Shown piece after piece: positions 36,730 through 64,000 of a stretch of 64,000 nucleotides of DNA. The stretch comes from Actinokineospora inagensis DSM 44258. Lineage in GTDB: Bacteria > Actinomycetota > Actinomycetes > Mycobacteriales > Pseudonocardiaceae. The notes under the pieces were generated by a model. It was not told the origin of the DNA and did not search any database. It saw nothing but the letters and a program-made list of their open reading frames with translations. Every line of letters begins with the position of its first letter. The first letter of the stretch is position 1. The DNA lies in NCBI RefSeq assembly GCF_000482865.1, contig NZ_KI519517.1, forward strand, positions 126,548 through 190,547, given 5' to 3'. Made by a program: the position numbers and the translations under genes.

Positions 36730-37286
36730 TTCGGTGAACCTCCCCAGAACAGCCAACCGGCTGCAACCGGCGACGACCCGGCGATCCGGCGCCACCGAGA
36801 AAAACCTAACCCGCGCTCCCCGCTATCCCATCGTCCATTTGAGTGACATTTCCTCGAGGGCCGTTAAAACGCCATTCCGGCCGGTATAGCGGAATTAGCA
36901 AACCGTTCCCGATACGGCAACCGGAGACCGCCGAACCGCCGGTTTGATCATGTGAGTCGGACGATCGGGTCGCGGGCAACCGGGGTCCGGGCCACCTTGG
37001 CAGGCGCGGGTCGGGGCCGCGCCGGGCTACCACCGGCCCGGGGAACGCCTCGATGTACCGCTGGCCGTTGGCGAAACCCCGGCGCGCGTTCACCGGCAGC
37101 CGCAACAGCCACGAGAACGGCACCACGTCGACGGCGATCTGATGTCTCCTTGCGCGAGGCGATGACCTCGGGCGTTACCGGCTTGGTTAACACCAGCCGT
37201 TGCCGGACAACCAGTGCGCAGCGGGCGATGATCGCCACGCCCACGGGCCGCCGCCGTGGCTTCGCGCTCGATGGTGACTGCGCCCC
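36730..37286. other. Gap between the RHS and WXG-effector genes
   Basis: 557 bases containing the RHS promoter. On the minus strand a 106-codon frame (36806-37126) reads plausibly at its start (WLLRLPVNARRGFANGQRY) and has AAGGAG about 20 bases upstream, too far to be convincing; it matches no family I recognise and may be a gene remnant. No repeats or RNA genes were seen. Confidence 0.4.
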
Positions 37287-43053: not shown

Positions 43054-43603
43054 CGAATGCTCCTTGTGTGCAGGGTTGCGCACGGCACGACCGGCTCCCG
43101 CCTCGTGGGCTGGAACAGGTTCGACGGTGGAGCCGGACGGCACCGAGCGCAGCGAAGCATCCGGATTTGGTCAAGAGATCGTCAAGACCTCGTTCGCCGA
43201 ACGGACTGTATTGTCAACTTCCGGCAAATCACTCGAAGTGCGGCAAACACGACAACCAGCGACAATGATCCGCGGTCAACTGGCAATTGGTAATTCGCGC
43301 TCGGTCCGCGAAAGCCGGTTCGCACCGTTCCCGATCACCGGATTTCCCCGTTCACAGCCGGTGCGGGCGCGAGGAATGTTCCCGGCGAACGCGCCGGTGG
43401 AACTCTCGTCGCCCGAACGACCGCCCTGCTGCCGGGCTCGTTCCGCGCGCGACCGGCGCGGGTGAACGATCACAGCGGGTCGCCTGGTAACGGCGTCCCG
43501 TTGTTGGTGGTGGAAGCGGCGCGCGACGGTAGACGGGCGGGCCGAGCCCCGTCCCGTTCGGGTTCGGCGCGCACCAGGTTCCTTCCCTGCAAGGAGAACT
43601 CTC
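43054..43603. other. Divergent promoter region of the two protease genes
   Basis: 550 bases between two exported proteases transcribed away from each other. The central part (about 43160-43320) is clearly less GC-rich than the flanks, as expected of promoters. No strong dyad or gene was recognised. AAGGAG at 43591 is the ribosome site of the cysteine protease gene. Confidence 0.45.
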
Positions 43604-47358: not shown

Positions 47359-47373
47359 ATAGCGCGTCGCTAT
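47359..47373. terminator. Short dyad at the end of the AKR-like gene
   Basis: ATAGCG-CGT-CGCTAT overlaps the AKR stop codon. The stem is 6 bp, so it may be a weak terminator or a regulatory site upstream of LysR. Confidence 0.3.
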
Positions 47374-48377
47374 AACGCGGCGGAGTCGACGGCCCGGTAT
47401 TGCGGCGGGGCAAATGTGAGCCTTGGGTCGGTTTGCACGAAACTTCCCATGAGCTGGTCGATCTGCGCGAGCACGTCGAGGTCGAGCGTGACCCCGGCGG
47501 CGCCCGCGTTCTCGCGCACCTGTTCCGGCCGCGACGCGCCCGCGATCACGGTGCCGACCAACGGGTTCTGCAGCACCCAGGCCAGCGCCAACTGCGCCAT
47601 GGTGAGTCCGCAGTGCCTGGCGACCCCGTCGAGCGGTTCGACCCGGGTGAGCAGTTCCTGGTGCAGTACCGGCCACACCAGCGCGCGGGCCAGTTCTCCG
47701 CCCGCGGCGCGGGAGTCCGGCGGGAACACCCCGCCGATGTACCGGCCCGCCAGCACGCCTTGACCGAGCGCGACCGCGGCGAGTTGTCCGATTCCCAGCC
47801 GTTCACACGCCGGGATCACCTGCGATTCCGGTACCCGCCAGAGCATCGAGTACTGCGGTTGGTTGCCGACCAGCGGGACCCGGTGCTTCTCGGCGAGCCC
47901 GGCCGCCTGCTGGATCTGCTCCGCGGTCCACTCCGAGGTGGCCACGTAGTGCACCTTCCCCTGCCGCACCAGGTCCGAGAGCGCGACGAAGGTTTCCTCC
48001 AGCGGCGTCTGGTAGTCGTACCGCAGGAGGTGGTAGAGGTCGATGTGGTCGGTGCGCAGCCTGCGCAGCGATCCGTTCAACGACGCGAAGATGTTCTTGC
48101 GGCTGAGCCCGCCCTGGCTGGGGCCGTTCTCCTCCGGCCAGAACACACCGGTGCTGAGCACCACCTCGTCGCGCCGGGTGCCGACCAGGCCGCGGGCCAG
48201 CGACTCCTCGGCGGCGCCACGACCCCAGGCCGCGGCCGTGTTGAACAGCGTCACGCCTTCCTCGACGGCGGCGCGCACGCACGCCTCCGCCTGGTCACCG
48301 GACTCGTAGGTGAGCCAGTTGCCGAAGCCCACCTCGCTCACCACCAGCCCGCTGGCGCCCAGGTTGCGGTACCGCAC
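47370..48377 (-). CDS. Aldo-keto-reductase-fold protein without catalytic tetrad
   Basis: 335 residues from GTG 48377, 3 bases after the SDR stop, so co-transcribed. The overall match is to the AKR6/Kv-beta-like family: MRYRNLGASGLVVSEVGFGN, the LSRKNIFASLNGSLRRLRTD helix, LGQGVLAGRY, and the NADPH clamp IAGASRPEQVREN. All four catalytic positions are changed: Asp to Asn46 and Tyr to Trp51 (LFNTAAAWGRG), Lys to Gly77 (LSTGVFWPEE), His to Leu118 (DLYHLLRYD). Neighbouring residues are well conserved, so this is not gene decay. It probably binds NADP(H) but cannot be a normal reductase; a sensor, scaffold or altered chemistry are options. Confidence 0.85.
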   Translation of the reverse strand: MRYRNLGASGLVVSEVGFGNWLTYESGDQAEACVRAAVEEGVTLFNTAAAWGRGAAEESLARGLVGTRRDEVVLSTGVFWPEENGPSQGGLSRKNIFASLNGSLRRLRTDHIDLYHLLRYDYQTPLEETFVALSDLVRQGKVHYVATSEWTAEQIQQAAGLAEKHRVPLVGNQPQYSMLWRVPESQVIPACERLGIGQLAAVALGQGVLAGRYIGGVFPPDSRAAGGELARALVWPVLHQELLTRVEPLDGVARHCGLTMAQLALAWVLQNPLVGTVIAGASRPEQVRENAGAAGVTLDLDVLAQIDQLMGSFVQTDPRLTFAPPQYRAVDSAAL

Positions 48378-48380: not shown

Positions 48381-49229
48381 TCAGCCCCTCGCGCCCGGCT
48401 GCACGGTCTGGTGCATGTTCGCCTGCGCGCTGGCCGCCAGTGTCGGCAGGGTGGCCACCGTCTCGCGCACCCAGTCGTCCGGCGCGGCCGCTTTGCGCGC
48501 GTACGTGTCGCCCGCGCTCGGGTGCGGCAGAATGAGCAGCTTTTCCGCCCGCATGGCCGCGATCACCGATTCGGCCACTTCCTCCGGTTCGATCAGCGGT
48601 CCCATCGCGACCACCGCGGTCGCGGCCGGGTGTCCGGCGCGGACTCCGTCGACCAGGAACGGGGTGCGCACTCCCAACGGGCACAGGGCGCTGACCCGGA
48701 TACCGCGGGAGCGGTAGGTGAAAGCGAGCCATTCGGCCAGCGCCACGGCGGCGTGCTTGGTCACCGAGTAGGGCGCGTCGCCGGGCAGGCTCAGCAATCC
48801 CGCGCTGGACGCGGTGATCACCAGGTAGCCGTCGCGGGCCTTGAGCATGGCCGGGAGCGCGGCCTGCGCGGCGTAGACGTGTTGCAGCACGTTGAGCTCG
48901 AACGAGCGCTGCCAGTGCGTGTCGTCGGCGTGCACGCCGGTGCCGAACGCCACGCCCGCGTTGGAACAGAACACGTCCAGGCCGCCGTACTCGCCCTTGG
49001 CCAGGGCGACCAGGCCGCGCAGGTCCGCCTTGGACGCCGCGTCCGCCTGCCGGGCGCAGGCCCGACCACCTGCCCGGTTGATTGACTCCGCGACCTCGGC
49101 GGCTGCCTCGCCGTCCAGGTCGGACACGACGATGCCGCGCGCGCCCGCGGCGGCGAACCGCCTGGCCATCGCGGCGCCCATTCCGTGTCCCGCGCCGGTG
49201 AGCACGGCGACGCGACCGGTCAGCTCCAT
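48381..49229 (-). CDS. Short-chain dehydrogenase/reductase of the PKS locus
   Basis: 282 residues from ATG 49229 (GGGAGAA upstream). Classical SDR: TGAGHGMGAAMARRF for the cofactor, CSNAGVAFGTG, active Ser in ITASSAGLLSLPG and YSVTK (Tyr-x3-Lys). The Asp after strand 2 (VVSDLDGEA) favours NAD(H). It is first in an operon with the AKR-like gene and divergent from the PKS operon across a 286-base region, so it probably oxidises or reduces a carbonyl or hydroxyl in the product or its sugar. Confidence 0.88.
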   Translation of the reverse strand: MELTGRVAVLTGAGHGMGAAMARRFAAAGARGIVVSDLDGEAAAEVAESINRAGGRACARQADAASKADLRGLVALAKGEYGGLDVFCSNAGVAFGTGVHADDTHWQRSFELNVLQHVYAAQAALPAMLKARDGYLVITASSAGLLSLPGDAPYSVTKHAAVALAEWLAFTYRSRGIRVSALCPLGVRTPFLVDGVRAGHPAATAVVAMGPLIEPEEVAESVIAAMRAEKLLILPHPSAGDTYARKAAAPDDWVRETVATLPTLAASAQANMHQTVQPGARG

Positions 49230-49515: not shown

Positions 49516-52500
49516 ATGTCCCACGCGCAGGTCGGTGCCCGGTGGCGCGTGCTTGGCCTGGCCCCCTTCGACCTGCCGGACCCCCGGCTGGCCGCCGCGG
49601 TGAGCCGGGGTGGCGGACTGGGGGTGCTCGACCTCGGCGTGGACGCCGTCGCCCAGCTCACCCTGGTCGCCGGGCTGGCCGACCGGATCGGGGTCCGGGT
49701 GCGGGCGGGGTGCCCGCTCGGTCCGGCCGACCTGCCGGACCGGGTGGAGGTGGTGCTGCTCGGGCCGGACGCGCCGTGGTCGGTGCGGGAGGCGGCGGCG
49801 CACAAGCCGGTCCTGGTCGAGGTGACCGGGGCCGACCAGGCCACGGCGGCGCTCGCGGACGGGGCGCACGGGGTGGTCGCGGTCGGCACCGAGTCGGCGG
49901 GCCCGGTCGGTGACCTGAGCGCGTTCGTGCTGCTGCAGCGGTTGCTGCGCCTGGACGTGCCGGTGTGGGTGCGCGGCGGTATCGGCCCGCACACCGCGTT
50001 GGGCGCGGTGGCCGCGGGCGCCGCCGGGGTCGTGCTGGACAGCCAACTCGGCCTGTTCGGCGAGAGCGACCTGTCCCCGGAGCTGCGGCGGCGGTTGGCC
50101 GCCGCGGACGGCTCGGAGACCGAGGTGCGCGACGGTCGCCGGTACCTGCGCGGCACCGACCTGCCGCTCGGTGAGGACGCGCACCTGGCCGCCACCCTCG
50201 CCGGGCGCTACGACTCGGCCGAGGCGCTGGTCCGGGCGTTGACCCGGGACCTGGCCACCGCCGGGGTCGGCGTGGACCCCCGCGCGCAAGGTGCCCCGGT
50301 CCGCGCGACGCTGGGCGTCGAGCACGCGGTGTTCCAGGGCCCGATGACCCGGGTCAGCGACCTGCCGGGGTTCGCCGAGGCCGTGTCCGAGCAGGGCGCG
50401 ATGCCGTTCATCGCGGTGGCCCTCGCCGGCGGCAAGCGCACCGAGGAGATGTTGCGCGCCACCGCCGAACTCCTCGGTGACCGGCCGTGGGGCGCGGGCA
50501 TCCTCGGGTTCGTCAGCGAGGACCTGCGTGCCGCCCAGTTGGCCGCGATCCGCTCCGTGCGGCCGCGCAGCGTCCTCGTCGCGGGCGGTACTCCCGCCCA
50601 GGCCGCCGCCCTGGAGGCCGAGGGGATCACCGCGTACCTGCACGTCCCGTCGCCGACCCTGCTCGGCCAGTACCTGGACCAGGGCGCGCGCCGGTTCGTC
50701 TTCGAGGGCTCGGAGTGCGGCGGCCACATCGGCCCGCGGTCCAGCTTCTCGCTGTGGGAGGCGCAGTTGGGTGTGCTCGCCGCCCGCCGGGACGTGGCGG
50801 GCGTGGAGATCGTCTTCGCCGGTGGCGTGCACGACGACGTCTCGGCCGCCGCGGTCGCCGCGATGGCCGAGCCCGCCGCCCGCCGCGGTGTCGGCGTCGC
50901 GGTCCTGATGGGCACGGCGTACCTGTTCACCGAGGAGGCCGTGCGGCACGGCGCGATCACCGGCCGGTACCAGCGCGAGGTGGTGGCCGCCGACCGGACC
51001 GTCACCGTGCGCACCGCCCCCGGCCACGAGACCCGCTGCCTGCCCAGCCCGTTCGTCGACCACTTCGAGGCCGTCGCCGCCGACCTGACCGCGCGGAACG
51101 TGCCGTCGCGGGACCGCTGGCAGGAGTTGGAGGAGCTCAACGTCGGCCGGTTGCGCATCGCCAGCAAGGGCCTGCGCCGCGAGGGCGACCGGTTGGTCCC
51201 CGTCGACGAGGTCGGCCAGGTCGCCGAGGGCATGTACATGGTCGGCCAGGTCACCGTGCTGCGCGAGGACCTCACCGACATCGCCACCCTGCACCGCGCC
51301 GTCACCGACGACGCCGCCGCCTTGCTGCGGTCCAGACAGGCGCCGGAACCCGCGAAGGCCCGCGTCCAGGAACCGTGTGACGTCGCGATCGTCGGTATGG
51401 CCTGTGTGTTCCCCGGTTCCGACGACCTGGCCTCGTTCTGGTCCGGCGTGCTGCGCGGCCGCGACGAGGTGACCGAGGTGCCGCCGGACCGCTGGGACGC
51501 GGACACCTACTACCGCGACGGTGGCGGCGAACCCGGCACCACCCCGTCCAAATGGGGCGGTTTCCTCCCGGCCATCCCGTTCGACCCGATGTCCTTCGGC
51601 ATCCCGCCCGCCTCGATGGGCGCCATCGATCCGGCGCAGTTGCTGTCGCTGGAGATCGCCCGCCGCGCGCTGGCCGACGCCGGTTACCTGGACCGGCCGT
51701 TCGACCGGGAGCGGGCGAGCGTGATCTTCGGCGCGGAGGCGGGCGGTGACCTGACCAACGCGACCGTGTTGCGCGCGCTGCTGCCGTCCTGGTTGGGCGA
51801 GTTGCCCGAGGAGTTCAACGACCTGCTGCCGCGGCTGACCGAGGACTCGTTCCCCGGCACGCTGACCAACGTCATCTCCGGCCGGATCGCCAACCGGCTG
51901 GACCTGGGTGGCGCGAACTACACCGTGGACGCGGCCTGCGGGTCGTCGCTGGCCGCGCTGGACCTGGCCTGCCGGGAACTGACCCACGGCGGCAGCGACC
52001 TGGTGCTGTGCGGCGCGGTCGACATGCACAACGGCATCAACGACTACCTGATGTTCACCTCCGCTGGCGCGCTCTCGCCCACCGGCCGGTGCAGGCCGTT
52101 CGACCGCGACGGCGACGGCATCGCCCTCGGTGAGGGGGTCGCGTGCGTGGTGCTCAAGCGCCTCGCCGACGCCGAACGCGACGGGGACCGGGTCTACGCC
52201 GTGGTCAAGGGCGTCGGCACCGCGAGCGACGGCCGTTCCCTCGGTCTCACCGCGCCCCGCCCCGAGGGCCAGCGGCGCGCGCTCGACCGGGCTTACGAGA
52301 TCGCCGGGGTGTCGCCGACCACGGTCGGCCTGATCGAGGCACACGGCACCGGCACGGTCGTCGGCGACGGCACCGAGTTGACCACCCTGACCGGTTTCTT
52401 CTCCGACGCGGGCGCCGAACCGGCCTCCTGCGCGCTGGGTTCGGTCAAGAGCCAGATCGGGCACACCAAGTGCGCCGCCGGTCTCGCCGGGCTGATCAAG

Positions 52501-55500
52501 ACCGCGCTGTCGCTGTGGTTCGGCGTCATCCCGCCCACGCTCAACCTGACCGAGCCGGTGGCGACCTGGGACCGGCGGACCAGCCCGTTCACCTTCAGCA
52601 CCCGGCCGCGGCCGTGGCTGACGCCGCGGGACAAGCGGGTCGCCGGGGTGAGCGCGTTCGGGTTCGGCGGCACCAACTTCCACGCCGTGCTGACCACCGG
52701 GCCCGGCGCCCCGCTGGACCGGCACGCGCTGCGCGACTGGGACGCCGAGTTGTTCCTGCTGCACTCCACCGAGGCCGTCCAAGACCTGCTGGCCCTGACC
52801 ATCGGCGAGGAGTTGCCGCTCGCCGAGTTGGCCGTGCGGGTCGCCGGGTGGCCGACCAAGGGACCGGTGGCGCACGCCGTCGTCGCCCGGGACCACACCG
52901 AGTTGGCGGGCGCGCTGCGGTCGGCGTTGGACGGCAGGCGGGACCGGGCGCTGTTCAGTGCCGAACCCCAAGCCGACCCCGGCAAGATCGCGTTCCTGTT
53001 CCCCGGCCAGGGCAGCCAGCGCACCGGGATGCTCGCCGACCTGTTCGTCGCCTTCCCGGACCTGCGCGCGCACCTGGACTCGCCCGCCGCCGCGCTCGCG
53101 TTCCCGCCCACCGCGTTCGACTCCGACGCCGAGGCCGAACAGGACGCCGCGCTGCGCGACACCCGCGCCGCGCAACCCGCGCTGGGCATCGCCGGGAGCG
53201 CCGTGGCGGACCTGCTCAACCGGGTCGGCGTGCGGCCGGACCTGTTGGGCGGGCACAGCTACGGCGAACTGGTCGCCCTCTCGGTCGCGGGCTCGTTCGA
53301 CCGGGACACCCTGCTGCGGCTCAGCGTCCGCCGCGCCGAGGCGATCATGACCGCCGCCGCGGACGACCCGGGTGCGATGGCCGCCGTCCGCGCCCCCGCC
53401 GACACGGTCGCCCTGCTGCTCGACGAGTGGGACCTCGCCGACGACGTGGTCCTGGCCAACCACAACGCGCCCGAGCAGATCGTCCTGTCCGGACCGACCG
53501 CGCCGTTGACCGACGCCGTCGAGCGGTTGCGCGCGGAAGGCTTGTCCGCCAAGCAGATCCCGGTCGCGTGCGCGTTCCACAGCTCCGTGGTCGCCCCCGC
53601 CGCCGAGCTGTTCGCCACCGCGTTGGCCGCCGAGGACGTCCGCCCGCCCGCGCTCCCGGTGTACGCCAACCGGACCGCAGCCGCCTACGAGTCCACTTCG
53701 GACGTTCGGGCGGAGCTGGCCGAGCAGGTGGCCAACCCGGTTCGGTTCGTCGAGCAGGTGCGCGCCATGTACGACGCGGGCGCCCGCACCTTCGTCGAGG
53801 TCGGCCCCGGCTCGGTGCTCACCGGGCTGGTCGGCGCGATCCTCGGCGACACCCCGCACACCGCGATCGCCTGCGACCCCGGGGCCGCCGGGCTGCGCGG
53901 CTTCCTCACCGCCCTGGCCCGGCTCGCCGCCGCCGGGGTCGCCATCGACACCGACTGGCTGGTGCGCGGCCGCGCCAGGCAGTCGGCTCCCCCCGCGCCG
54001 TGGACGGTCGACGGCCAACTGGTCCGCCGCGCCGACGGCGGCATCCCGCGCGGGGCGCTGGTCCCCGCCCGACGAATCACGAGGTCCCCGATGTCATCGG
54101 ACAGCCCGTCCACCGAGAACGGCTTCCACAGCGAGCGAGACGAACGCGACAGCGTTGTCGCCGCTTTCCTGCGCACCAACCGGGAAATGGTCACCGCCCA
54201 GCGCGATGTGCTATTGGGCTACCTCGGGCATTCCGCCGGAGCCGTGTTCGCCGCGCCCGCCGCCCCGGTGCTGGTGGCCGCCCCGGTCGCGCAGGCGCCG
54301 GTGGTGCAGGCGGTGCCGACCGAGTCCGTCGCCGCGCCGGTCGCCACGGCCGTCCCGACGCTCGTCGAGGAACCGGTGACCGCGCCTGAGCCCGCCGAGG
54401 AACCCGGTGGCCTGCGGCCGGAGGACGTGCTGGCCGCCGTGGTCGAGGTGATCAGCGCCCGCACCGGCTACCCACCGGAGATGATCGACGGCGACCTCGA
54501 CCTTGAGGCCGACCTGTCCATCGACTCGATCAAGCGGACCGAGATCGCGGGCACGCTGATCGCCAAGCTCGGGGTCAGCGCCGAGGGCACCGTGCACGAC
54601 GAGCTGCACCGCAGGCGCAGCGCGCAGGCCATGGCGTTCTGGCTGGAGGAGCGCCTCGGCATCGCCGAGGAGGCGGCGCCGGACACCGCCCGCGCCATCG
54701 TCGGCGTCCGGCCGCGCCGCTTCCTGCCCTGCTCGGTCCCCGCCGCCGCCGTGGGCGCCACCCCGGACCTCGCGGGCCGCAAGGTCCACTTGCGACACGA
54801 CCAGGCCCGCGCCGAGCACGCCGCCGCCGTCGCGGCCATGGTCACCGGGCACGGCGCGACGACCGTCGAGAGCGGCAACGACACGCTCATCGTGCTCACC
54901 CCGCTCACCCCCGCCGACGAACCCGTTGCCCCGCAGGTGTTCTCCGCGCTGCGCGACGCCGTCGGCGCCGGGGTGAGCACCCTGCTGGTGGTGTCCCCGC
55001 ACGACAACGGCCAGGCACCCCTGCACGCCGTGGGTCTGCGCGGCATGGTCCGCTCGGTGCACGTGGAGCACCCGACCCTGTCGGTCCGGCTCGTCGAGGT
55101 CGACTCCGGCACCGACCCGGCCACGCTGGCGGACGTGCTGGCGGTCGAGCTGGCCGACCGGAGCGACCTGTCGGTGGTCCGGCACACCGGCGCCGACCGG
55201 GTGTCCTTCGAGGTCGTCGACGCCGAACTGGCCGCGGCCGACCTCGGCTCGCTCGGCCTGGACCGCGACTCGGTCGTCCTGGTCCTCGGCGGCGCCCGCG
55301 GCATCACCGCCCGGTGCAGCGCCGCGCTGGCCGCCGCGGCCGGGTGCCACCTGGAACTGGCAGGCCGGACGCCATGGCCGCCGGAGTCGGCGCTGCCGCC
55401 GGAGCTGACCAACGCCGACGAGAACGCGCTGCGCGCCGCGCTGGCCGCCGAGGGCCGCCCGCTGCCCGAGGTGGAGCGCGCGGTCCGGCAGATCATCACC

Positions 55501-56100
55501 CAGCGCGAGGTGTCCTCGACCATCGCCCAGGTCCGCGCCGCGGGTGGGCAGGTCGACTACCGGCAGATCGACGTGCGCGACGCCACCGCCGTCCGCCAGC
55601 TCGTGAAGGACGTGCACGCCCGGCACGGCAGGCTCGACGGCGTCATCTACGCCTCCGGTGTCCTCGACGACCGGCTGATGCTGGAGAAGGGCGACGACTC
55701 CTTCCACCGGGTGTTCTCCACCAAGGTCGACGGCGCCCGCGCCCTGCTCGACGGGCTCGCCGAGGCCGGTGTGCGGCCCGGCTTCACCACCCTGTTCGGC
55801 AGCGTCTCGGCCGTGTTCGGCAACCGCGGCCAGGTCGACTACGCGGCGGGCAACGACGCCCTGGAGACCCTGGGCAACGCCTTCGGCGACCGCACCGGCT
55901 GCCGGGTGGTCACCATCCACTGGGGACCGTGGGCGCCGACCGGTGAGCACGGCGGCATGGTGTCCGAGGAGCTGGCCCGCGACCTGGACCGGCGCGGCAT
56001 CGGCCTCATCGACCCGGACGCGGGCACCGAGTGCCTGCTGCGCGAGCTGGCGCACGGCGAGGCGGACACCCGCGCGGTCGTCTACACGGCGTGGGTGTGA
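49516..56100 (+). CDS. Iterative type I PKS: NMO/PfaD-like barrel x2 - KS - AT - ACP - KR
   Basis: 2194 residues from ATG 49516. Residues ~8-250 are a reduced copy of a nitronate-monooxygenase-type barrel (LAPFDLPDPRLAAAVSRGGG). Residues ~260-615 are a full copy with GPMTRVSDLPGFAEAVSEQG and the FMN motif GSECGGHIGP, like PfaD-type enoyl reductases. KS (~618-1070) has Cys808 in DAACGSSLA, then EAHGTGTVVGD and GHTKCAAG. AT (~1157-1500) has Ser1248 in GGHSYGE. A single ACP carries Ser1671 in DLSIDSIKRTEI, the DSIKR form found in PUFA-type synthases. The C-terminal KR (~1915-2194) has GGARGITA and VDYAAGND. It would extend and reduce an acyl chain on its own ACP, with the fused barrel as enoyl reductase. 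The next gene starts within its stop codon. Confidence 0.9.
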   Translation: MSHAQVGARWRVLGLAPFDLPDPRLAAAVSRGGGLGVLDLGVDAVAQLTLVAGLADRIGVRVRAGCPLGPADLPDRVEVVLLGPDAPWSVREAAAHKPVLVEVTGADQATAALADGAHGVVAVGTESAGPVGDLSAFVLLQRLLRLDVPVWVRGGIGPHTALGAVAAGAAGVVLDSQLGLFGESDLSPELRRRLAAADGSETEVRDGRRYLRGTDLPLGEDAHLAATLAGRYDSAEALVRALTRDLATAGVGVDPRAQGAPVRATLGVEHAVFQGPMTRVSDLPGFAEAVSEQGAMPFIAVALAGGKRTEEMLRATAELLGDRPWGAGILGFVSEDLRAAQLAAIRSVRPRSVLVAGGTPAQAAALEAEGITAYLHVPSPTLLGQYLDQGARRFVFEGSECGGHIGPRSSFSLWEAQLGVLAARRDVAGVEIVFAGGVHDDVSAAAVAAMAEPAARRGVGVAVLMGTAYLFTEEAVRHGAITGRYQREVVAADRTVTVRTAPGHETRCLPSPFVDHFEAVAADLTARNVPSRDRWQELEELNVGRLRIASKGLRREGDRLVPVDEVGQVAEGMYMVGQVTVLREDLTDIATLHRAVTDDAAALLRSRQAPEPAKARVQEPCDVAIVGMACVFPGSDDLASFWSGVLRGRDEVTEVPPDRWDADTYYRDGGGEPGTTPSKWGGFLPAIPFDPMSFGIPPASMGAIDPAQLLSLEIARRALADAGYLDRPFDRERASVIFGAEAGGDLTNATVLRALLPSWLGELPEEFNDLLPRLTEDSFPGTLTNVISGRIANRLDLGGANYTVDAACGSSLAALDLACRELTHGGSDLVLCGAVDMHNGINDYLMFTSAGALSPTGRCRPFDRDGDGIALGEGVACVVLKRLADAERDGDRVYAVVKGVGTASDGRSLGLTAPRPEGQRRALDRAYEIAGVSPTTVGLIEAHGTGTVVGDGTELTTLTGFFSDAGAEPASCALGSVKSQIGHTKCAAGLAGLIKTALSLWFGVIPPTLNLTEPVATWDRRTSPFTFSTRPRPWLTPRDKRVAGVSAFGFGGTNFHAVLTTGPGAPLDRHALRDWDAELFLLHSTEAVQDLLALTIGEELPLAELAVRVAGWPTKGPVAHAVVARDHTELAGALRSALDGRRDRALFSAEPQADPGKIAFLFPGQGSQRTGMLADLFVAFPDLRAHLDSPAAALAFPPTAFDSDAEAEQDAALRDTRAAQPALGIAGSAVADLLNRVGVRPDLLGGHSYGELVALSVAGSFDRDTLLRLSVRRAEAIMTAAADDPGAMAAVRAPADTVALLLDEWDLADDVVLANHNAPEQIVLSGPTAPLTDAVERLRAEGLSAKQIPVACAFHSSVVAPAAELFATALAAEDVRPPALPVYANRTAAAYESTSDVRAELAEQVANPVRFVEQVRAMYDAGARTFVEVGPGSVLTGLVGAILGDTPHTAIACDPGAAGLRGFLTALARLAAAGVAIDTDWLVRGRARQSAPPAPWTVDGQLVRRADGGIPRGALVPARRITRSPMSSDSPSTENGFHSERDERDSVVAAFLRTNREMVTAQRDVLLGYLGHSAGAVFAAPAAPVLVAAPVAQAPVVQAVPTESVAAPVATAVPTLVEEPVTAPEPAEEPGGLRPEDVLAAVVEVISARTGYPPEMIDGDLDLEADLSIDSIKRTEIAGTLIAKLGVSAEGTVHDELHRRRSAQAMAFWLEERLGIAEEAAPDTARAIVGVRPRRFLPCSVPAAAVGATPDLAGRKVHLRHDQARAEHAAAVAAMVTGHGATTVESGNDTLIVLTPLTPADEPVAPQVFSALRDAVGAGVSTLLVVSPHDNGQAPLHAVGLRGMVRSVHVEHPTLSVRLVEVDSGTDPATLADVLAVELADRSDLSVVRHTGADRVSFEVVDAELAAADLGSLGLDRDSVVLVLGGARGITARCSAALAAAAGCHLELAGRTPWPPESALPPELTNADENALRAALAAEGRPLPEVERAVRQIITQREVSSTIAQVRAAGGQVDYRQIDVRDATAVRQLVKDVHARHGRLDGVIYASGVLDDRLMLEKGDDSFHRVFSTKVDGARALLDGLAEAGVRPGFTTLFGSVSAVFGNRGQVDYAAGNDALETLGNAFGDRTGCRVVTIHWGPWAPTGEHGGMVSEELARDLDRRGIGLIDPDAGTECLLRELAHGEADTRAVVYTAWV

Positions 56101-59100
56101 GCCAGGTGTCCAGACCACCGCAGGCGCGGGAACCGGTGGCGATCGTCGGGATGGCGGTGATGCTGCCCGGCGCGCCGGACCTGGAGACCTACTGGCACAA
56201 CCTGCGCGCCGGGGTGGACGCCATCACCGACGTCCCCGCCGACCGCAGGGACCCGCACTTCCACGCGGGAGTCGCGGACCCCACCAAGCCGGTCCCGCCG
56301 GACCGCACCTACTGCCACCGCGGCGGGTTCCTGGCGCCGTTCGACATCGACGCCGCCGGGCTGGGCATCATGCCCAACTCGGTGGACACCATCGAACCGG
56401 ACCAACTGCTCTCGCTGCGGGTCGCGTCGATGGCGGTCGCCGACGCGGGCGGGCTGTCCACGCTCGGCGACCCGACGAGGATCGGCGTGATCCTCGGCCG
56501 CGGCGGCTACATCGGTCCGCGCATGGTCGGCCTGGAGCAGCGGGTCCGCACCGTCCGCACGGTGATGCGGGTGCTGGCCGAGCTGAACCCCGGCATGAGC
56601 CCCGAGGAGTCGGAGCGGGTGCGGTCGGCGCTGCTCGACCCGTTCGGTCCGGCGCAGCCCGAGGCGGCGATCAACCTGGTGCCGAACCTGGCCGCGTCCC
56701 GGGTCGCCAACCGGCTGGACCTGCGCGGTCCCGCCTACACGGTGGACGCGGCGTGCGCGTCGTCGCTGCTCGCGGTGGACCAGGCGGTCGGCGAGCTCGA
56801 CTCCGGCCGCTGCGACGCCGTCCTCGCCGGCGGGGTCTACCACGGCCACGACGACACCTTCTGGGCCGTGTTCAGCCAGTTGCGGGCGCTGTCGCCGACG
56901 CAGGGCAGCAGGCCGCTGTCCCGCGACGCCGACGGGCTGCTCATCGGTGAGGGCGCCGGTTTCGTGGTGCTGCGCAGGCTCTCCGACGCGCACCGCGACG
57001 GCGACCGGGTCTACGCGGTGATCCGCGGGGTCGGGTCGGCCAGCGACGGCCGCACGCAGAGCCTGTTCAACCCGGACACCGCGGGCCAGCAGGCCGCGCT
57101 GCGCCGGGCCTGGTCGGCGGCCGGGCTGGACCCGGCCGCGCCGGACTCGGTCGGCATGGTGGAGGCGCACAGCACGGCGACGCCGGTGGGTGACGCGTCC
57201 GAGTTGACCGCGCTGGCCGAGGTGTTCGGTGCCCCGCCCGGCTCGTCGGCGGTGATCGGGTCGGTCAAGTCGATGATCGGGCACACGATGCCTGCCGCCG
57301 GGGTCGCCGGTCTGGTCAAGGCCGCTTTGGCGGTGTACCACGGGGTTCTGCTGCCGACGCTGCACTGCTCGGAGCCCAACCCGCTGCTGGCCAAGACCCG
57401 GTTCCGGGTGCTCGACGAGCCCCGCCCGTGGGAGGGCGCGGGTCCGCGTCGGGCCGCGGTCAACGCGTTCGGGTTCGGCGGGATCAACGCGCACGTCGTG
57501 ATCGAGCAGGACGTCACACCGGCGTCGTCGGGCGCGGTGAGTGTCGACGAGCCGGAACGGGTGCTGCGCCTGGCGGCGGACGATCCGACCGAGTTGTCCC
57601 GACTGCTCGACGCGCACGCCGACAACCCCACCGGGGAACCGGTCGGCACGGGTCGGTACCGGCTGGGCATCGTCGGTCCCAACGCGAAGCGGCTCTCGGT
57701 GGCCCGCCGCGTGCTGGCCAGAGCGGGGCAGCCCGGGTGGAAGTGGTCCTCCGGTGACGTGTGGTTCACCGGCGAGCCGCTGCTGCACGAGTCGGGCGCC
57801 AAGACCGCGTTCGTGTTCCCCGGCTTGGAGGCCGAGTTCGCGCCGCGGGTCGAGGACGTGGCCGCGCTGCTCGGCGAGACACCGCCCACCATCGGCACCG
57901 AGACCGTGCCGGAGCACGTCGCGGCGGTCGCCGATGTCGGCATGCTGCTGCACCGCGCCCTGGGCCGGATGGGAGTGCGTCCGGACGGCTTCGCCGGGCA
58001 CAGCATCGGCGAGTGGACCGCGGCCGTGCTCGCGGGCATGTTCACCGGCGACCGCCCGGGGATCGGGCTCGACGGGTTCCCGATGCCCGAGGTCGACTAC
58101 CTCGCCCTGGGCTGCTCGGTCGAAGAGGCCGCAGCGGGCATCGTCGGCGAGTCGGATGTTGTTGTCTCCCATGACAACGCGCCGAGGCAGACCGTCGTGT
58201 GTGGACCTCCGGCGGCGGTCGAGCGGCTGGGGGTCAAGTTCCGGGCCGCCGGGGTGTTCGCCCGGTCGCTGCCGTTCCAGACCGGGTTCCACACCCCGAT
58301 GATGCGGCCGTTCGTCGAGACCTACCTGAGCGCGATGGACGCGACCGGGGTGCGGCCGGGCACCGTCCCGATGTGGTCGGCCACCACCGCCGACCGGTAC
58401 CCCGCCGACGTCGCCGCGCTGCGCAGGCTCTCCGCCGACCACCTGCTGCTCCCGGTCCGCTTCCGCGAGCTGGTCGACCGGATGTACGCCGAGGGCTACC
58501 GGGTGTTCCTGCACATGGGCCCCGGTCAGCTCGGCTCGTTCGTGGCCGACACCCTGGCCGACCGGCCGCACCTGGTGATCAACGCCGCCTCCGGGCTGCG
58601 CACCGGCCTTGCCCAGTTGCGCCGGTTGGGTACGGCGCTGTGGGTCGATGGCGGGGAGCCCGACCTCGGGGCACTGGACCGCCGGACCCGGGAACCAGGT
58701 AAGTCCGAAGTGGACAAACCGGTGCGGCCGGGCATCACGGTTCGGGTCACCACGCCGACGCTCGCGGTCCAGGCGGTGCGCGGGCTGCTCGACCGGCGGG
58801 TCCCGCTCGGCGCGCGGCCGGACCTGCCCGCCGACCTGCCGGAGACCGTCGCCGCTGAACTGGCCGCCCTGCTCGCCGAGACCGACGACACGGTCCGCTC
58901 GGTGGTGGCCGCCGTCGCCGAGAGGCCGAAGCGGTCCAACGGACACCGGGCGCACACCCCGGCCCCGCGGGTCGTGCCGTCCCCGCCGTCTGGCGCGGTG
59001 ATCACCAAGGCGCCGACCGCCCCGGCCACGGTGCGGACCAGCGTGTTGCGGATCTCCGTCGAGACCATGCCGTACCTGCGTGGGCACCGGTTCTTCCGGC

Positions 59101-60212
59101 AGCGCGCGGACTGGCCGGACGAGACCGACTACCGCCCGGTGGTGCCCGCGACGACGTTGGTGGAGTGGGCGCAGCGGGCGGCGGAGCAGGCGTGGCCCGG
59201 CGAGGTCGCGGTGGCCGTGCGGGACATCCGGTTCACCCGGTGGGTGATCGCCGCCCCCGCGCAGGACATGGAGATCCGGGTCGACCGGCCGGTGCCCGGC
59301 GGGCCAGTAATTGTCCACATGGGACAGTCAGCGGTGATGGCGGTCGACCTGGCGGCGGACTACCCGCCCGCCCCGGCGCCCCGCCCGCACCCCGGCCCGC
59401 TCGACGGCCCGGTGCTGACGCACAAGGAGATCTACGGCGAGCGGCAGATGTTCCACGGCCCGCAGTACCAGGGGCTGACCGAGGTCACCGCGCACGTCGG
59501 CGACCAGCTCTGCTGCCAGGTCGCCGTGCTGCCCGCGCCGGGTTCGGTGCTCGACAACGTCGGCCAGGCGCTGGGCTGCTGGCTGCAGGTGAAGGCGGAG
59601 CGCCGGATACTCGCCTTCCCGGTGCGGGTCGACTCGATCACCTTCCACGGCCCGCCGCCGCCGATGGGGGTGCGGGTCGACTGCGTCGCCGACGCGCGGC
59701 TGCCCGACGACTCGGCGGTGGAGATGGACGCCGAGGTGACCTACCACGGCAAGGTCTGGGCCAGGATCACCGGCTGGCACGACATCCGGCTGGACTGCGA
59801 CCAGGCCGACCACGGCGTGTACGCCTTCCCCCGGGACAACTCGCTGTCCACGCCGCTGGCCGACGGCTGGTGGCGGGCGGTGGACCGGTGGACGACGCTG
59901 GCCTCGCGCGACGTGTTCGTCGGGGTCTACCTGAACGCGCCCGAACGGGCGGAGTACGCGGCGGTCCCGCCGCGCGAGCAGCGCGGATGGCTGCTCGGGC
60001 GGGTGGCCGCCAAGGACGCCGTGCGCGGCTGGCTGGCCGAGCACGGCGGGGAGCGGGCCTTCCCCGCGGAAATCCTGGTGACCGGGGACGGCGACCGTCT
60101 CCGGGTGCGCGGACACCACGGCCGGTCGCTGCCCGGGTTGCGGGTCATCCTCGCGCCCGGCGGCCCGACCGCCGTGTCCGCCCGAGTGGAGAGGACCACC
60201 GGAGATGGCTGA
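56097..60212 (+). CDS. Iterative PKS subunit: KS - AT - DH - PPTase-like
   Basis: 1371 residues from GTG 56097, overlapping the first PKS stop by 4 bases (GTGA). KS (~10-471): Cys220 in DAACASSLL, His in EAHSTATPVGD (EAHGTGTPVGD in most KSs) and GHTMPAAG. AT-like (~569-850): FVFPGLEAEF replaces the usual FPGQGxQ, but the nucleophile Ser636 in AGHSIGE and the late TGFHTP are intact. DH (~990-1245): His997 in YLRGHRFFRQ followed by PVVPATTLVEW, like DHs of PUFA and enediyne synthases. C-terminus (~1255-1371): GRVAAKDAVRGWL resembles the Lys-Glu/Asp motif of phosphopantetheinyl transferases. It provides condensation and dehydration to its partner and may activate the locus ACPs itself. Confidence 0.87.
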   Translation: MSQVSRPPQAREPVAIVGMAVMLPGAPDLETYWHNLRAGVDAITDVPADRRDPHFHAGVADPTKPVPPDRTYCHRGGFLAPFDIDAAGLGIMPNSVDTIEPDQLLSLRVASMAVADAGGLSTLGDPTRIGVILGRGGYIGPRMVGLEQRVRTVRTVMRVLAELNPGMSPEESERVRSALLDPFGPAQPEAAINLVPNLAASRVANRLDLRGPAYTVDAACASSLLAVDQAVGELDSGRCDAVLAGGVYHGHDDTFWAVFSQLRALSPTQGSRPLSRDADGLLIGEGAGFVVLRRLSDAHRDGDRVYAVIRGVGSASDGRTQSLFNPDTAGQQAALRRAWSAAGLDPAAPDSVGMVEAHSTATPVGDASELTALAEVFGAPPGSSAVIGSVKSMIGHTMPAAGVAGLVKAALAVYHGVLLPTLHCSEPNPLLAKTRFRVLDEPRPWEGAGPRRAAVNAFGFGGINAHVVIEQDVTPASSGAVSVDEPERVLRLAADDPTELSRLLDAHADNPTGEPVGTGRYRLGIVGPNAKRLSVARRVLARAGQPGWKWSSGDVWFTGEPLLHESGAKTAFVFPGLEAEFAPRVEDVAALLGETPPTIGTETVPEHVAAVADVGMLLHRALGRMGVRPDGFAGHSIGEWTAAVLAGMFTGDRPGIGLDGFPMPEVDYLALGCSVEEAAAGIVGESDVVVSHDNAPRQTVVCGPPAAVERLGVKFRAAGVFARSLPFQTGFHTPMMRPFVETYLSAMDATGVRPGTVPMWSATTADRYPADVAALRRLSADHLLLPVRFRELVDRMYAEGYRVFLHMGPGQLGSFVADTLADRPHLVINAASGLRTGLAQLRRLGTALWVDGGEPDLGALDRRTREPGKSEVDKPVRPGITVRVTTPTLAVQAVRGLLDRRVPLGARPDLPADLPETVAAELAALLAETDDTVRSVVAAVAERPKRSNGHRAHTPAPRVVPSPPSGAVITKAPTAPATVRTSVLRISVETMPYLRGHRFFRQRADWPDETDYRPVVPATTLVEWAQRAAEQAWPGEVAVAVRDIRFTRWVIAAPAQDMEIRVDRPVPGGPVIVHMGQSAVMAVDLAADYPPAPAPRPHPGPLDGPVLTHKEIYGERQMFHGPQYQGLTEVTAHVGDQLCCQVAVLPAPGSVLDNVGQALGCWLQVKAERRILAFPVRVDSITFHGPPPPMGVRVDCVADARLPDDSAVEMDAEVTYHGKVWARITGWHDIRLDCDQADHGVYAFPRDNSLSTPLADGWWRAVDRWTTLASRDVFVGVYLNAPERAEYAAVPPREQRGWLLGRVAAKDAVRGWLAEHGGERAFPAEILVTGDGDRLRVRGHHGRSLPGLRVILAPGGPTAVSARVERTTGDG

Positions 60213-60513
60213 AACGACCACCGTGTTCGACGCGGTCGTCGAGTTGATCGGCGGACTGGTCGGCGACGATCTGGACATCCTCGGGGTCGAGGTGCGCCAC
60301 GACACGGCCTTCCACGAGGACCTCGGCCTGGAGAGCATCGACCTGGTCACCCTGGCGGGCCTGCTCACCGAGCGCTTCGGCCCCCGGGTCAACCTCGCCG
60401 AACACCTGGCCGAGTTCGACCTGGACGACGTGATCGGCCTGACCGTCGGCCAGATCGCCGACTACGTCGCGGCCTGCCTGCGCGACTCGGACGGCCTGCC
60501 CGAGGGGGGATGA
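60205..60513 (+). CDS. Discrete acyl carrier protein
   Basis: 102 residues from ATG 60205, overlapping the PKS end by 8 bases. Ser44 in EDLGLESIDLVTL is the phosphopantetheine site, and the four-helix ACP pattern (FDAVVELIGGLVGD..., LTVGQIADYVAACL) is clear. It lacks the DSIKR form of the ACP inside the first PKS, so it is a second, different carrier: perhaps for loading the starter or handing the finished chain to the hydrolase. Confidence 0.88.
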   Translation: MAETTTVFDAVVELIGGLVGDDLDILGVEVRHDTAFHEDLGLESIDLVTLAGLLTERFGPRVNLAEHLAEFDLDDVIGLTVGQIADYVAACLRDSDGLPEGG

Positions 60514-60828
60514 GGTGCCGGAACCGAAGGTCAACGGTCCGCGTACCGACTACCGGTGGCGGTCCGGCACCCGAAACCCGTCCGGGGCGGTACCGGGTGC
60601 CGACGGCCGAGCGAGGTCCGCGGCCGCGCACCGGTGGCCCGGCTTCGTTGTCCGCGCCTGCCACCACTCGGCGAACCACGGGCGTTGCCCGCTTGGCCGC
60701 CCCGCGCCCGGAGGAGACATGCCTGGAATCGAAGGTGGCAGCCGCATACCGGTGGCTGGGTGCCGTCCTGTTGCCTGGAACCGTGCGCGCTGTTCGCTCG
60801 GTCGCGCCGGGTGTGGAGGAGGGGTGGC
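60514..60828 (+). repeat. Degenerate duplications of the hydrolase gene start
   Basis: The 315-base gap before the hydrolase holds two decayed copies of its 5' end. At 60515 a GTG start gives MPEPKVNGPRTDYR, against MPELKVNGLRTNYQ in the hydrolase. At 60719 GGAGGAGAC-ATG is followed by DNA (ATGCCTGGAATCGAAGGT...) that aligns with the hydrolase start and its leader (GGAGGAGGGGTGGC-ATGCCTGAGCTGAAGGT). Both lose the frame or the similarity after roughly 50-90 bases. These copies carry start codons, and the second also a ribosome site, so they could be translated briefly as leader peptides. Confidence 0.65.
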
Positions 60829-61611
60829 ATGCCTGAGCTGAAGGTCAATGGGCTGCGCACGAACTACCAGGTGCTCCCCGGGACGGGCAGTCCGTCCGAG
60901 ACGGTGGTGTTCATCCACGGTATGGGCACCGACAGCCTGGCCAGCTTCTACCTGACGCTGGCGCCGCCGGTGGCGGCGGCTGGGATCGACGTGATCAGTT
61001 ATGACCTGCGTGGGCACGGCAAGTCCGAGCGCCCGGTGAGCGGGTACACGCTGGCCGATTTCGTCGCGGACCTGGACGAGTTGTTGCGGTCGCTGGTCGG
61101 TGACCGGCCCGCGCACCTGGTGGGCAACAGCTTCGGCGGCACGATCGCGTACGCCTTCGCCGCCACCCACCCGGACCGGGTCCGGTCGGTGGTGTCGATC
61201 GAGTCCGAGCCGCCGACGGAGTTCTGGGCGGCGAAGATGACCGGCATCCTGGCGGCCACCACCGAGATGCTCGGCGTGGAGGAGAACTACGAGTGGATCG
61301 AGGCGACCTTCGGCGCGCACCACCGGCGGCTGGCCCGGTTGGCGGCCAAGCGGTTCACCTCGACCACGATGGCCGAGGAGGTGCCGACCGGGACGATGAT
61401 GACCATGGACGACGTGGCCGCCATCGAGGTGCCGGTGCTGTCCATCCTGGGCCGGTTCGGCTACCAGTCCGACGACCTGGACGCGTTGACCTCGCTGATG
61501 CCGCGCGGTGAGCTGTTCGTCTTCGACGACCAGGGCCACTCGGTGTTGGTCGAGCAGCACCGGGCGGTGCGCGGGCTGCTGGTCGACTGGGTTCGGAGGC
61601 ACAGCGGATGA
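60829..61611 (+). CDS. Alpha/beta hydrolase (stand-alone thioesterase candidate)
   Basis: 260 residues from ATG 60829 with GGAGGAGG upstream. Oxyanion motif FIHGMGTD, nucleophile Ser101 in VGNSFGGT, RGHGKSERP after strand 4, and His237 in DDQGHSVLVEQ complete the fold. The PKSs lack a thioesterase domain, so this enzyme is a reasonable candidate for chain release or for hydrolysis of a glycosylated or esterified intermediate. It overlaps the glycosyltransferase gene by 4 bases. Confidence 0.88.
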   Translation: MPELKVNGLRTNYQVLPGTGSPSETVVFIHGMGTDSLASFYLTLAPPVAAAGIDVISYDLRGHGKSERPVSGYTLADFVADLDELLRSLVGDRPAHLVGNSFGGTIAYAFAATHPDRVRSVVSIESEPPTEFWAAKMTGILAATTEMLGVEENYEWIEATFGAHHRRLARLAAKRFTSTTMAEEVPTGTMMTMDDVAAIEVPVLSILGRFGYQSDDLDALTSLMPRGELFVFDDQGHSVLVEQHRAVRGLLVDWVRRHSG

Positions 61612-62765
61612 GCAGGCTGCTGTTCGTCGTCCCGCCGCTGGCGGGCCACGTCAACCCCCTGGTTGGCGTGGCCGCCGCGGCCGTCGCCCGCGGCCACGAG
61701 GTGGCCTGGGTCGGCCCGTGCCCGGTGGTGCGGGACCTGGTCGGGGAGCGGGTGTACCCGGCCGGGTCCTATGTGGAGCGTCGGCCCGCCGGGCTGCGCG
61801 CGTTCGCCGCGCTGCGGTTCCTGTGGGCGGAGTTCCTGGTGCCGCTGGCCGACGCCATGGTGCCCGGGGTGCTGGCCGCGGTGGCGGACTTTGACCCGGA
61901 CCTGCTGGTGGTCGACCAGCAGGCGTTCGCCGGGGCGCTGGTCGCCGAGCGGCTGGGGCTGCCCTGGGTCACCTCGGCCAGCACCTCCACCGAGCTGGCC
62001 GACCCGCTGGGGTCGATGCCGCGCATCGCCGAGTGGGTGCGCGACCAGCAGCGCGGCCTGCGCGACCGGCACGGCGTGCCCGGCGACGACGACCTGCGGT
62101 TCTCGCCGCACTCGGTCGTCGTGTTCAGCACCGCCGAGCTCGCCGGTGACCCGATGGTGTCGGTGGCGGGCCCACACTACGTCGGCCCGTCGCTGGCCCG
62201 GCGCAGGCCGGTGGAGTTCCCGTGGGCCCGGCTGCGGCCGGGCGCCCGGCTGGTGCTGGTCACCCTGGGCACCACGAACTCCGAGGCGGGCGGCCGGTTC
62301 CTGGCCGAGTGCGCGCTGGCGCTCGCCGAGCTGCGGGACCGGGACCTGCAGGGCGTCGTGATCGACCCGGGCGGCTTCCTCGCCCCGGCCGGGGACGTGG
62401 TCGTGGTCCCGTCGGCGCCGCTGCTGGACCTGATCCCGCGCGCGGCCGCGGTGGTCTGCCACGGCGGGCACAACACCGTGTGCGAGACCCTGGCGCACGG
62501 TGTCCCGCTGGTCGTCGCGCCGATCCGGGACGACCAGCCGGTGGTGGCCGACCAGGTCGTCGCGTCCGGTTCCGGTGTGCGGCTGCGGTTCGACCACGCC
62601 CGCGCACCGGACATCGCCAAAGCGGTGCGCGCGGTCACCGCCGAACCGGGTTACGTCGAGGCGGCCTGCCGGGTGCGGGCGTCGTTCGACCGGGCGGGTG
62701 GCGCCCAGGCCGTGGTGTCCCGGGTGGAGGACCTAGTGCTCAGCTCGCGGATCGCGCGCAGGTAG
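61608..62765 (+). CDS. GT-B glycosyltransferase (MGT/UGT-like)
   Basis: 385 residues from ATG 61608 (ATGA overlap with the hydrolase). N-terminal acceptor half: LLFVVPPLAGHVNPLVGVAA with the catalytic His. C-terminal donor half: LVLVTLGTTNSEAGG and the nucleotide-sugar motif CHGGHNTVCETLAHGVP, followed by DDQP. This is the macrolide/UDP-glycosyltransferase family (GT1), which transfers a sugar to a lipophilic hydroxyl or acid. As last gene of the PKS operon it most likely glycosylates the product to a glycolipid or glycosylated polyketide. No sugar-nucleotide genes are in view, so a common donor such as UDP-glucose is likely. Confidence 0.9.
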   Translation: MSRLLFVVPPLAGHVNPLVGVAAAAVARGHEVAWVGPCPVVRDLVGERVYPAGSYVERRPAGLRAFAALRFLWAEFLVPLADAMVPGVLAAVADFDPDLLVVDQQAFAGALVAERLGLPWVTSASTSTELADPLGSMPRIAEWVRDQQRGLRDRHGVPGDDDLRFSPHSVVVFSTAELAGDPMVSVAGPHYVGPSLARRRPVEFPWARLRPGARLVLVTLGTTNSEAGGRFLAECALALAELRDRDLQGVVIDPGGFLAPAGDVVVVPSAPLLDLIPRAAAVVCHGGHNTVCETLAHGVPLVVAPIRDDQPVVADQVVASGSGVRLRFDHARAPDIAKAVRAVTAEPGYVEAACRVRASFDRAGGAQAVVSRVEDLVLSSRIARR

Positions 62766-64000
62766 AGCGGATCGATCCGGTAGCGGGTGTCGCCGTCCGC
62801 CCGGGTGCGGCCCTGCGGTGCCGGGTCGGCCAGCCGGATCCAGGTGAGCCGGTCGAGCAGGTCGGTCGCGTCGTCGGGGGAGAGGTCGACGCTGCGGGCC
62901 ACCCAGTCCGCGGACACCGCGTCCGGCCGGTCGTCGCGGTGCGCCAACCGCACCAGCGCCGCCCAGTCGGTGGCGTCGAGCCCGTCGGCGCTGCGCGCCA
63001 CGCTGGCCGCCAGGTCCAGCTTGCCCGCGGTCAGCGGCGGGTCGGCCAGCCGCTGCGCCAGCCTGCCCAGTGACCAATGTGGACGGTAGCGGGCGAGCTC
63101 GGCGAGCACGGCGGCGGCCATCGGCAGCCCGCGGCAGCGGGTGACCAGCGACCAGGCGGCCAGCGGTTCGCGTTCCACGCGGGCCTGCCCGACCCGGGAG
63201 GTGAACAGGGTCAACAGGTCCTCGGGCGCCATCCGCGGCAGTTCGACCGACACCACCGGGGCGGACAGCCGCGACGCGCACCCCAGCACCAGCGCGCTGT
63301 CCGGGGAACCCGGTGCCAGCGCGGAGAACTCGGTGCCGTCGGTCACGTTGTCCAGCACCACCAGCAGCCGGGAGTCCCTGGTGTGCTTGCGGAACGAGAG
63401 CACCCGGGCCGCGAGTCCTTCCGGGATCGCGGTGCCCGGCCGCAGCGCGCGCAGGAAGTTGCCGAGGATTTCGGTGGGGGAGTGCTCGGCGACGTCGGCC
63501 AGCAGCCTGCCGTCCGGGTAGGCCGCCCGCGCCTGCTCGGCCACGCGCGCGCAGAACGTGCTCGTCCCGACACCAGGCGCCCCGACGACGGCGAGCACCG
63601 CCGGACCCGATCGCGGTGTCCTGGTCAGCTCCGCCAACGCGAACTCCGCCTGCGGCCCGTGCCCGACGACCTCACCGGTCGGGAACACCTGTTCCGGGCG
63701 GCCGTAACGGGGAACCCGCAACGGGCGCACGGTCGACACCGGCGGCGCGGACTCCGGCGGCTCGTCGCGCAGGGCGCGTTCGAACGCCGACCGCAGTGCC
63801 TGACCGGGTTCCAGTCCGGACTCCCGCGCCAACCGGGCCCGCACGTCGTGGAACAGGTCCGTGGCGCGGGCGCGCTGACCGACGCAGGCGAACCCGAGCA
63901 GCAGCGACGCGTAGAGCTGTTCGTGCCGGGGGTCTTCGCGCACCACCCGGTCGACCTGCGCCAGCACCGCCTCCGGTCGACCGAGGTCGAGCTGCACCCG
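62651..64000 (-). CDS. SARP/AfsR-type regulator, N-terminus beyond the right edge
   Basis: About 450 residues are visible; the gene enters from the right edge. The first ~75 visible residues are the end of a BTAD domain (VVREDPRHEQLYASLLLGFA, ARLARESGLEPGQALR), so a SARP DNA-binding domain should lie outside the window. A STAND/NB-ARC ATPase domain follows, with Walker B RLLVVLDNVTD and the GLPMAAAVLAELARY motif. Its P-loop reads VVGAPGVGTSTF: the essential Lys is Thr (codon at 63563-63565). There is no TPR region; the protein ends soon after a winged-helix segment. Its 3' end overlaps the convergent glycosyltransferase by 115 bases. It probably activates the PKS operon. Confidence 0.82.
   Translation of the reverse strand, partial: RVQLDLGRPEAVLAQVDRVVREDPRHEQLYASLLLGFACVGQRARATDLFHDVRARLARESGLEPGQALRSAFERALRDEPPESAPPVSTVRPLRVPRYGRPEQVFPTGEVVGHGPQAEFALAELTRTPRSGPAVLAVVGAPGVGTSTFCARVAEQARAAYPDGRLLADVAEHSPTEILGNFLRALRPGTAIPEGLAARVLSFRKHTRDSRLLVVLDNVTDGTEFSALAPGSPDSALVLGCASRLSAPVVSVELPRMAPEDLLTLFTSRVGQARVEREPLAAWSLVTRCRGLPMAAAVLAELARYRPHWSLGRLAQRLADPPLTAGKLDLAASVARSADGLDATDWAALVRLAHRDDRPDAVSADWVARSVDLSPDDATDLLDRLTWIRLADPAPQGRTRADGDTRYRIDPLYLRAIRELSTRSSTRDTTAWAPPARSNDARTRQAAST

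Follow-up and report, generated by a model that had tools for sequence, protein, structure and literature searches.

The window analysed here, a stretch of 64,000 nucleotides of Actinokineospora inagensis DSM 44258 (genome G000, contig C2) to whose positions all coordinates refer, carries on its forward strand a unit of five genes that encode two large proteins of a polyunsaturated fatty acid (PUFA) synthase-like system, P1 and P2, a free acyl carrier protein (ACP), an alpha/beta hydrolase and a GT1/MGT-type glycosyltransferase (GT). This order, as well as the tight or overlapping spacing of the genes, was confirmed by the open reading frames, small gaps or overlaps separating the members of the unit with the exception of one spacer. 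P1 (49516..56100, 2194 residues) is a pfaDA-type megasynthase that comprises two NMO-type modules (NMO1, without the catalytic His, and NMO2, of the active type), a ketosynthase (KS), an acyltransferase (AT), an ACP and a ketoreductase (KR). P2 (56106..60212, start approximate) is of the pfaBC type and is made up of KS, AT and dehydratase (DH) domains and a truncated phosphopantetheinyl transferase (PPTase) remnant, without a chain-length factor (CLF). The best NCBIfam match of both proteins is TIGR02813 (PfaA), below its cut-off, which bears out the PUFA-synthase-like nature that the initial annotation had assigned to the locus.

A profile search of P1 rendered two NMO-type stretches, KS, AT, ACP and KR, so that the N-terminal fusion of NMO/PfaD-like barrels to KS-AT-ACP-KR stands as first described. 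NMO1 (49516..50250), a TIM-barrel-like module recognised by phmmer, alignment and model, matches FabK at residues 22-204, while NMO2 (50281..51315; PF03060 at residues 265-527) is a second TIM barrel, a FabK/PfaD-like enoyl reductase (ER) with the motifs EGSECGGHIG and GPMTRV. P1 was aligned in 38 rows, namely the window and the fetched loci L001-L003, L045-L063, L065-L075, L077 and L080-L082; L064, L076 and L078 were excluded because they are split or partial, and the alignment does not include L079, L083 or L101-L120 either. None of the 38 rows has the catalytic His in NMO1 (the position holds R in 19 rows, P in 3, A in 3, Q in 2, K in 2 and a gap in 9), while His404 and Met277 of NMO2 are kept in all of them, and the motif-I Met was not seen by eye in NMO1 of the window. 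Eight strands are predicted in NMO1 by an AlphaFold model of the two barrels, whose confidence is low (mean pLDDT 59). Foldseek retrieved FabK structures with this model at TM scores under 0.55, matches that, the model being weak, do no more than agree with the sequence result. The active sites of KS and AT (51361..53850) are intact, and their signatures are intact in the alignment rows shown. Exactly one DSIKR motif is present, in the internal ACP (54430..54585, LSIDSIKR), as had been noted before, and it is followed by a KR (55270..55940) with intact NADPH and S/Y sites. ACP and KR are missing in the L051 row, which is cut by a contig end, and P1 of L057 has the variant ACP motif DSINA. P1 of L047 and L058 has 5 and 3 DSIKR-type ACP motifs, respectively.

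Comparison with L002, together with position, places the start of P2 near 56106, just past the stop of P1, and not at 56031. In the window, the Cys-His-His of its KS, the GHSIG of its AT and the His and Asp of its DH are all present. The possibility that this second KS is a CLF was rejected, since Cys-His-His is found in 30 of the 32 rows of the P2 alignment, including the window, the other two being gapped. The DH is a single copy of the polyketide synthase (PKS) type (PF14765/PF21089), and no FabA-type DH/isomerase match was found in P2 at E<=0.01. The KS-AT-DH part of the partner protein was thus correctly recognised in the initial annotation, but not a working PPTase. The C-terminus (59850..60209) holds a remnant, and neither the window nor its Actinokineospora kin has the catalytic half, which in relatives contains GIDIE...KEA, with the Mg-binding Asp/Glu and KEA. 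PF01648 did not match P2 of the window at E<=0.01, whereas it clearly matches a Streptomyces homologue, and a PDB search with the P2 C-terminus gave no match at E<=1. The complete PPTase motif (strict) is present in 23 of the 59 loci scanned, window counted. Outside this locus, the genome of A. inagensis has three other PPTase matches.

The free ACP (60205..60513) carries LGLESIDLV. The hydrolase (60829..61611), with the nucleophile in VGNSFGGT and a His in DQGHSV, starts at the ATG that follows GAGGAGG at 60829 and not at 60556, and overlaps the GT gene (61608..62765); the genes, order and spacing proposed for this part of the unit hold, once this start and that of P2 are corrected. The 315-base spacer (60514-60828) that precedes the hydrolase gene holds decayed, partial tandem copies of its 5' end; it is single-copy in the genome and has no counterpart in Actinokineospora enzanensis, A. 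auranticolor or L045. A candidate gene at 60510-60836 was discarded, as it overlaps these decayed copies.

Conservation of the five-gene unit

With the NMO module as query (600 residues), 30 of the 298 genomes from the order and 54 of the 394 sampled from the class gave a homologue, the own genome being counted in both. The loci compared were 36 from the order list, 20 places from the class list and a number of named loci, L044 being left out as an apparent duplicate of L002. The closest kin are A. enzanensis and A. auranticolor, with a P1 identity of 77-79%. The order P1-DH-ACP-hydrolase-GT, tested without requiring the KS of P2, recurs in 50 of the 62 fetched loci, which indicates that the arrangement is not due to chance and that these genes form a conserved unit. 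These loci do not count as independent, since many come from one genus and two, L081 and L083, are near twins, and L078, which is among the 50, has broken frames (74% complete genome). Of the 12 loci outside the 50, four are cut by contig ends (L003, L051, L060 and L106) and two have a partial P1 and no cassette (L076 and L079). L077 and L117 have hydrolase and GT, but the order search gave no ACP in either; blastp recovered one in L077, and none was found in L117. The remaining four are L080 and L082, which are Type P-like (see below), and L057 and L059, which have no GT. Two Streptomyces linear plasmids carry all five genes followed by a methyltransferase gene, with insertion sequence elements nearby and, as far as their incomplete gene tables go, no biosynthetic neighbours beyond the cassette and the methyltransferase.

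Among PDB entries, the hydrolase best matches 3qit (E 1.2e-13), deposited as a polyketide synthase, which we take to be a thioesterase domain. Among the best 60 of its 175 PDB rows there is no match named RhlA or RhlB, the rhamnolipid proteins that offer an analogy for a hydrolase and GT pair. For the GT, matches were obtained to the macrolide GT subfamily TIGR01426 and, more weakly, to macrolide-inactivating and OleI models; YjiC and oleandomycin GTs are among its best PDB kin, one match (9ke1) being named a rhamnosyltransferase. Such similarities, together with the ABC transporter genes nearby, could mean that the GT serves self-protection, temporarily inactivating a bioactive lipid or polyketide in the cell, rather than making a final glycolipid. 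However, all the GT model scores are under the curated cut-offs and the kept order ends with the GT in 50 of the 62 loci, drawn from different families, so that we regard this role as quite improbable.

Relationship to described lipid synthases

In a midpoint-rooted KS tree of 59 rows, drawn from 35 chosen loci and the window, the P1 KS lies inside a 22-row clade (support 100/99), which next joins a Rhodobacteraceae plasmid KS (93/88), then the KS of the ArsA-like proteins of Beijerinckia and Methylosinus (91/86) and, beyond these, that of three plasmid PKS loci, L122-L124 (93/98). The KS of P2 falls in a clade of 17 rows (100/100), whose neighbour is the second KS of L122-L124 (93/84). This placement, together with the domain order and partner of the Beijerinckia protein, argues for P1 as pfaDA and for P2 as pfaBC without CLF. 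In a Rhodobacteraceae plasmid locus (L121:9895-24514), a further fused-synthase variant, a P1-like gene lies with genes for a TauD-type dioxygenase, a methyltransferase and a large protein annotated as PPTase.

The initial annotation had not recognised this gene set as described, and in that it is superseded, as the fusion is already in print. In the portions of two articles on which we draw, Type M secondary-lipid synthases, of unknown product, are listed for Actinosynnema, Frankia, Renibacterium and S. avermitilis (PMC3098273, Shulse and Allen 2011), and a fused pfaDA with a pfaBC that includes PPTase is given for two Flavobacteriales, Aquimarina and Flavobacterium, and likened to Renibacterium (PMC13291983). 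Type M is further described there as the likely sole complete fatty-acid pathway of R. salmoninarum and as most often directly adjoined by a PPTase (PMC3098273), and Ottowia as having a fused pfaDA whose cluster includes a glycosyltransferase (PMC13291983). The window resembles Type M as an actinobacterial Pfa-like locus whose P1 and P2 fit the Renibacterium layout as worded in PMC13291983, P1 having the fusion of pfaD to the N-terminus of pfaA (ER-KS-AT-ACP-KR) and P2 having the KS-AT-DH of the fused pfaBC but a truncated PPTase. The likeness to Type M is thus one of layout as given in published descriptions. Neither the ACP-hydrolase-GT trio nor a His-less barrel was found in the accessible parts of the literature on Type M or fused pfaDA. 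The locus is a real, well-conserved example of a known, chemically uncharacterised synthase family.

The ArsA-like protein of Beijerinckia indica plasmid pBIND02 (L080) has the same NMOx2-KS-AT-ACP-KR order, but two PP-binding stretches; its partner is a separate DH-PPTase protein, that of Methylosinus (L082) being annotated only as PPTase. Both ArsA-like proteins have a His-less first barrel like that of P1 and are its KS neighbours in the tree. Their loci differ from the window in having type III PKS-like genes, a GT that is not matched by the window GT, no second KS-AT and no ACP-hydrolase-GT trio. Membership of Type P was rejected for the window, whose locus has no type III PKS, the sole PF02797 match in the genome lying on another contig (C70). 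The single ACP of P1, first taken to be unusual, is not so by the published account, in which ars is already cited as an example without multiple ACPs (excerpts of PMC3098273), even though the ars-like Beijerinckia protein has the two stretches mentioned. In contrast to PUFA synthases of Types A and B, with tandem ACPs, separate PfaD, two DH/isomerase domains and CLF, the window has one ACP, a fused ER, one PKS-type DH and a second KS with Cys-His-His.

A chain with some unsaturation, or a polyene like those of PUFA synthases, to be glycosylated afterwards, would be in line with PfaA as the best subfamily of P1 and P2 and with the position of their KSs beside those of loci read as Pfa-like. 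Against it stand the single PKS-type DH, the intact ER, KR and DH sites and the nearest kin with a known pathway, Type P, which in Azotobacter makes the C22-26 acyl chains of phenolic lipids (per the sections of PMC3098273 used), and we therefore find it unlikely. A reduced long acyl chain is favoured because the ER, KR and DH sites are intact, the DH is not of the PUFA-isomerase kind and Ars offers a parallel; as far as sequence can tell, a reduced chain is likelier than a polyunsaturated one. Of the reduced, possibly partly unsaturated chain that had been predicted at the outset, the second attribute is consequently weakened, while a glycosylated lipid is still the likely predicted product.

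Proposed route to a glycolipid

The locus probably encodes a Type M-like secondary-lipid synthase coupled to a release-and-glycosylation trio. From the observed gene and domain content, intact sites, conserved order and KS placement we infer all of the chemical steps that follow, as well as the pairing of the barrels. P1 and P2 would make up one iterative synthase, in which the AT of P1 would load malonyl, the KS condense on the internal ACP and the KR reduce; the DH of P2 would then dehydrate and NMO2 of P1 reduce the enoyl with FMN. NMO1 may be a non-catalytic partner of NMO2, in a covalently linked ER pseudo-dimer. There is a solved precedent for the pairing of two FabK/PfaD-type barrels in the ERb/ERc heterodimer of a thraustochytrid PUFA synthase (accessible text of PMC13311796), but there the catalytic His is present in both barrels, which belong to separate proteins, whereas those of P1 are in tandem and the first is without it. 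The finished chain, reduced and possibly beta-hydroxy, would pass to the free ACP, be released by the hydrolase and be glycosylated by the GT; in Actinokineospora, it may also be tailored by the short-chain dehydrogenase/reductase (SDR) and aldo/keto reductase (AKR) encoded next to the unit, and exported by an ABC-2 system. Off-loading, glycosylation and export are deduced from gene content and conserved order. A Pfa-like synthase whose alkyl chain ends in a glycolipid is known in HglE/HglC (Type F, in the portion of PMC3098273 consulted); Type F is without DH/isomerase and has KS-CLF-AT, while the window is without CLF, and the likeness is one of description.

Several observations weigh against this proposal. 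The similarity of the hydrolase is PcaD- and esterase-like, and action on acyl-ACP is not thereby demonstrated. A GT was found neither within 20 kb of L057 and L059 nor ca. 14 kb further downstream, and glycosylation is thus not universal. Only one KS was found in L047, L053, L056 and L058, whose P2 for this reason seems AT-DH-PPTase-like, and this puts the role of the P2 KS in doubt. The KS tree has moderate support between groups, and the Pfa-type label of L122-L124 comes from layout, not from annotation; the ER model is the one of low confidence mentioned above. The likeness to Type P is drawn from Beijerinckia and Methylosinus, not from Azotobacter ArsA, and Beijerinckia was not found to produce phenolic lipids (PMC3098273, in part). 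Finally, no Type M product was found in the open-licence literature.

More tentatively, and with a probability that we would put below even, the cassette could represent an unrecognised, mobile and widespread actinobacterial glycolipid pathway, in which Type M-like synthases throughout the class would share the trio, the ER would be a single-chain pseudo-heterodimer with the His-less barrel as structural partner only, and the product would be a long-chain acyl glycoside for the envelopes of spores, hyphae or Frankia, or a secreted surfactant. In the parts of the Frankia literature available to us, the PKS FRAAL4072 and three glycosyl transferases are named among the proteins abundant in nodules, but were not linked to this locus. 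For Actinokineospora, hglE-KS is only listed in the literature, with no product. The interest of the locus lies in its five-gene unit, the plasmid copies and the tandem of active and inactive reductases; moreover, since the ACP-hydrolase-GT trio accompanies the synthase in most of the loci examined, and does so on Streptomyces plasmids too, what was a vague "secondary lipid" becomes a glycolipid prediction that can be tested through a small, expressible gene set.

The wider Actinokineospora locus

The locus extends beyond the limits first assigned to it (49516..62765). Upstream, on the reverse strand, lie divergent genes for an SDR oxidoreductase (48381..49229), an AKR (47370..48377) and a LysR regulator (46167..47138). 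Downstream, a SARP-type regulator gene (62651..64000, reverse strand) runs past the window end, being complete at L012:3199-5049, and is followed in Actinokineospora by ABC transporter genes and by a gene for an AT-less KS-DH-ER-KR-ACP protein. Kin more than 45% identical were found for the SDR at 20 of the 62 loci, for the AKR at 14, for the ABC ATPase at 10 and for SARP and LysR at 3 each, counts that are lower bounds since most loci span only 20 kb; SDR and AKR thus adjoin the cassette in part of the family, and LysR kin were found at no loci other than those of the closest relatives.

The AT-less PKS (L012:7050-11894), in which no GHSxG AT motif was found in the own genome, is kept past the SARP and ABC genes in A. 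inagensis, A. enzanensis and A. auranticolor, with 68-69% identity in the best segments. In Actinokineospora, this neighbouring protein might take up the chain as a starter or branch, with a hybrid polyketide as the outcome. Nevertheless, the other loci checked, most of them only 20 kb long, showed no close copy of the PKS next to the cassette, the plasmid cassettes stand without it and its gene is on the opposite strand, all of which makes such a hybrid very unlikely.

Just downstream, L012:14955-19627 and L013 encode a sulfotransferase, another PKS, a P450, an AMP ligase and a thioesterase, probably a separate cluster. Elsewhere in the window, the reverse strand encodes an RHS-repeat protein of 2225 residues with a Golvesin C-terminal-type domain (30118-36795) and a protein that joins thermolysin-type M4 and M28 peptidase domains (39538-43143).

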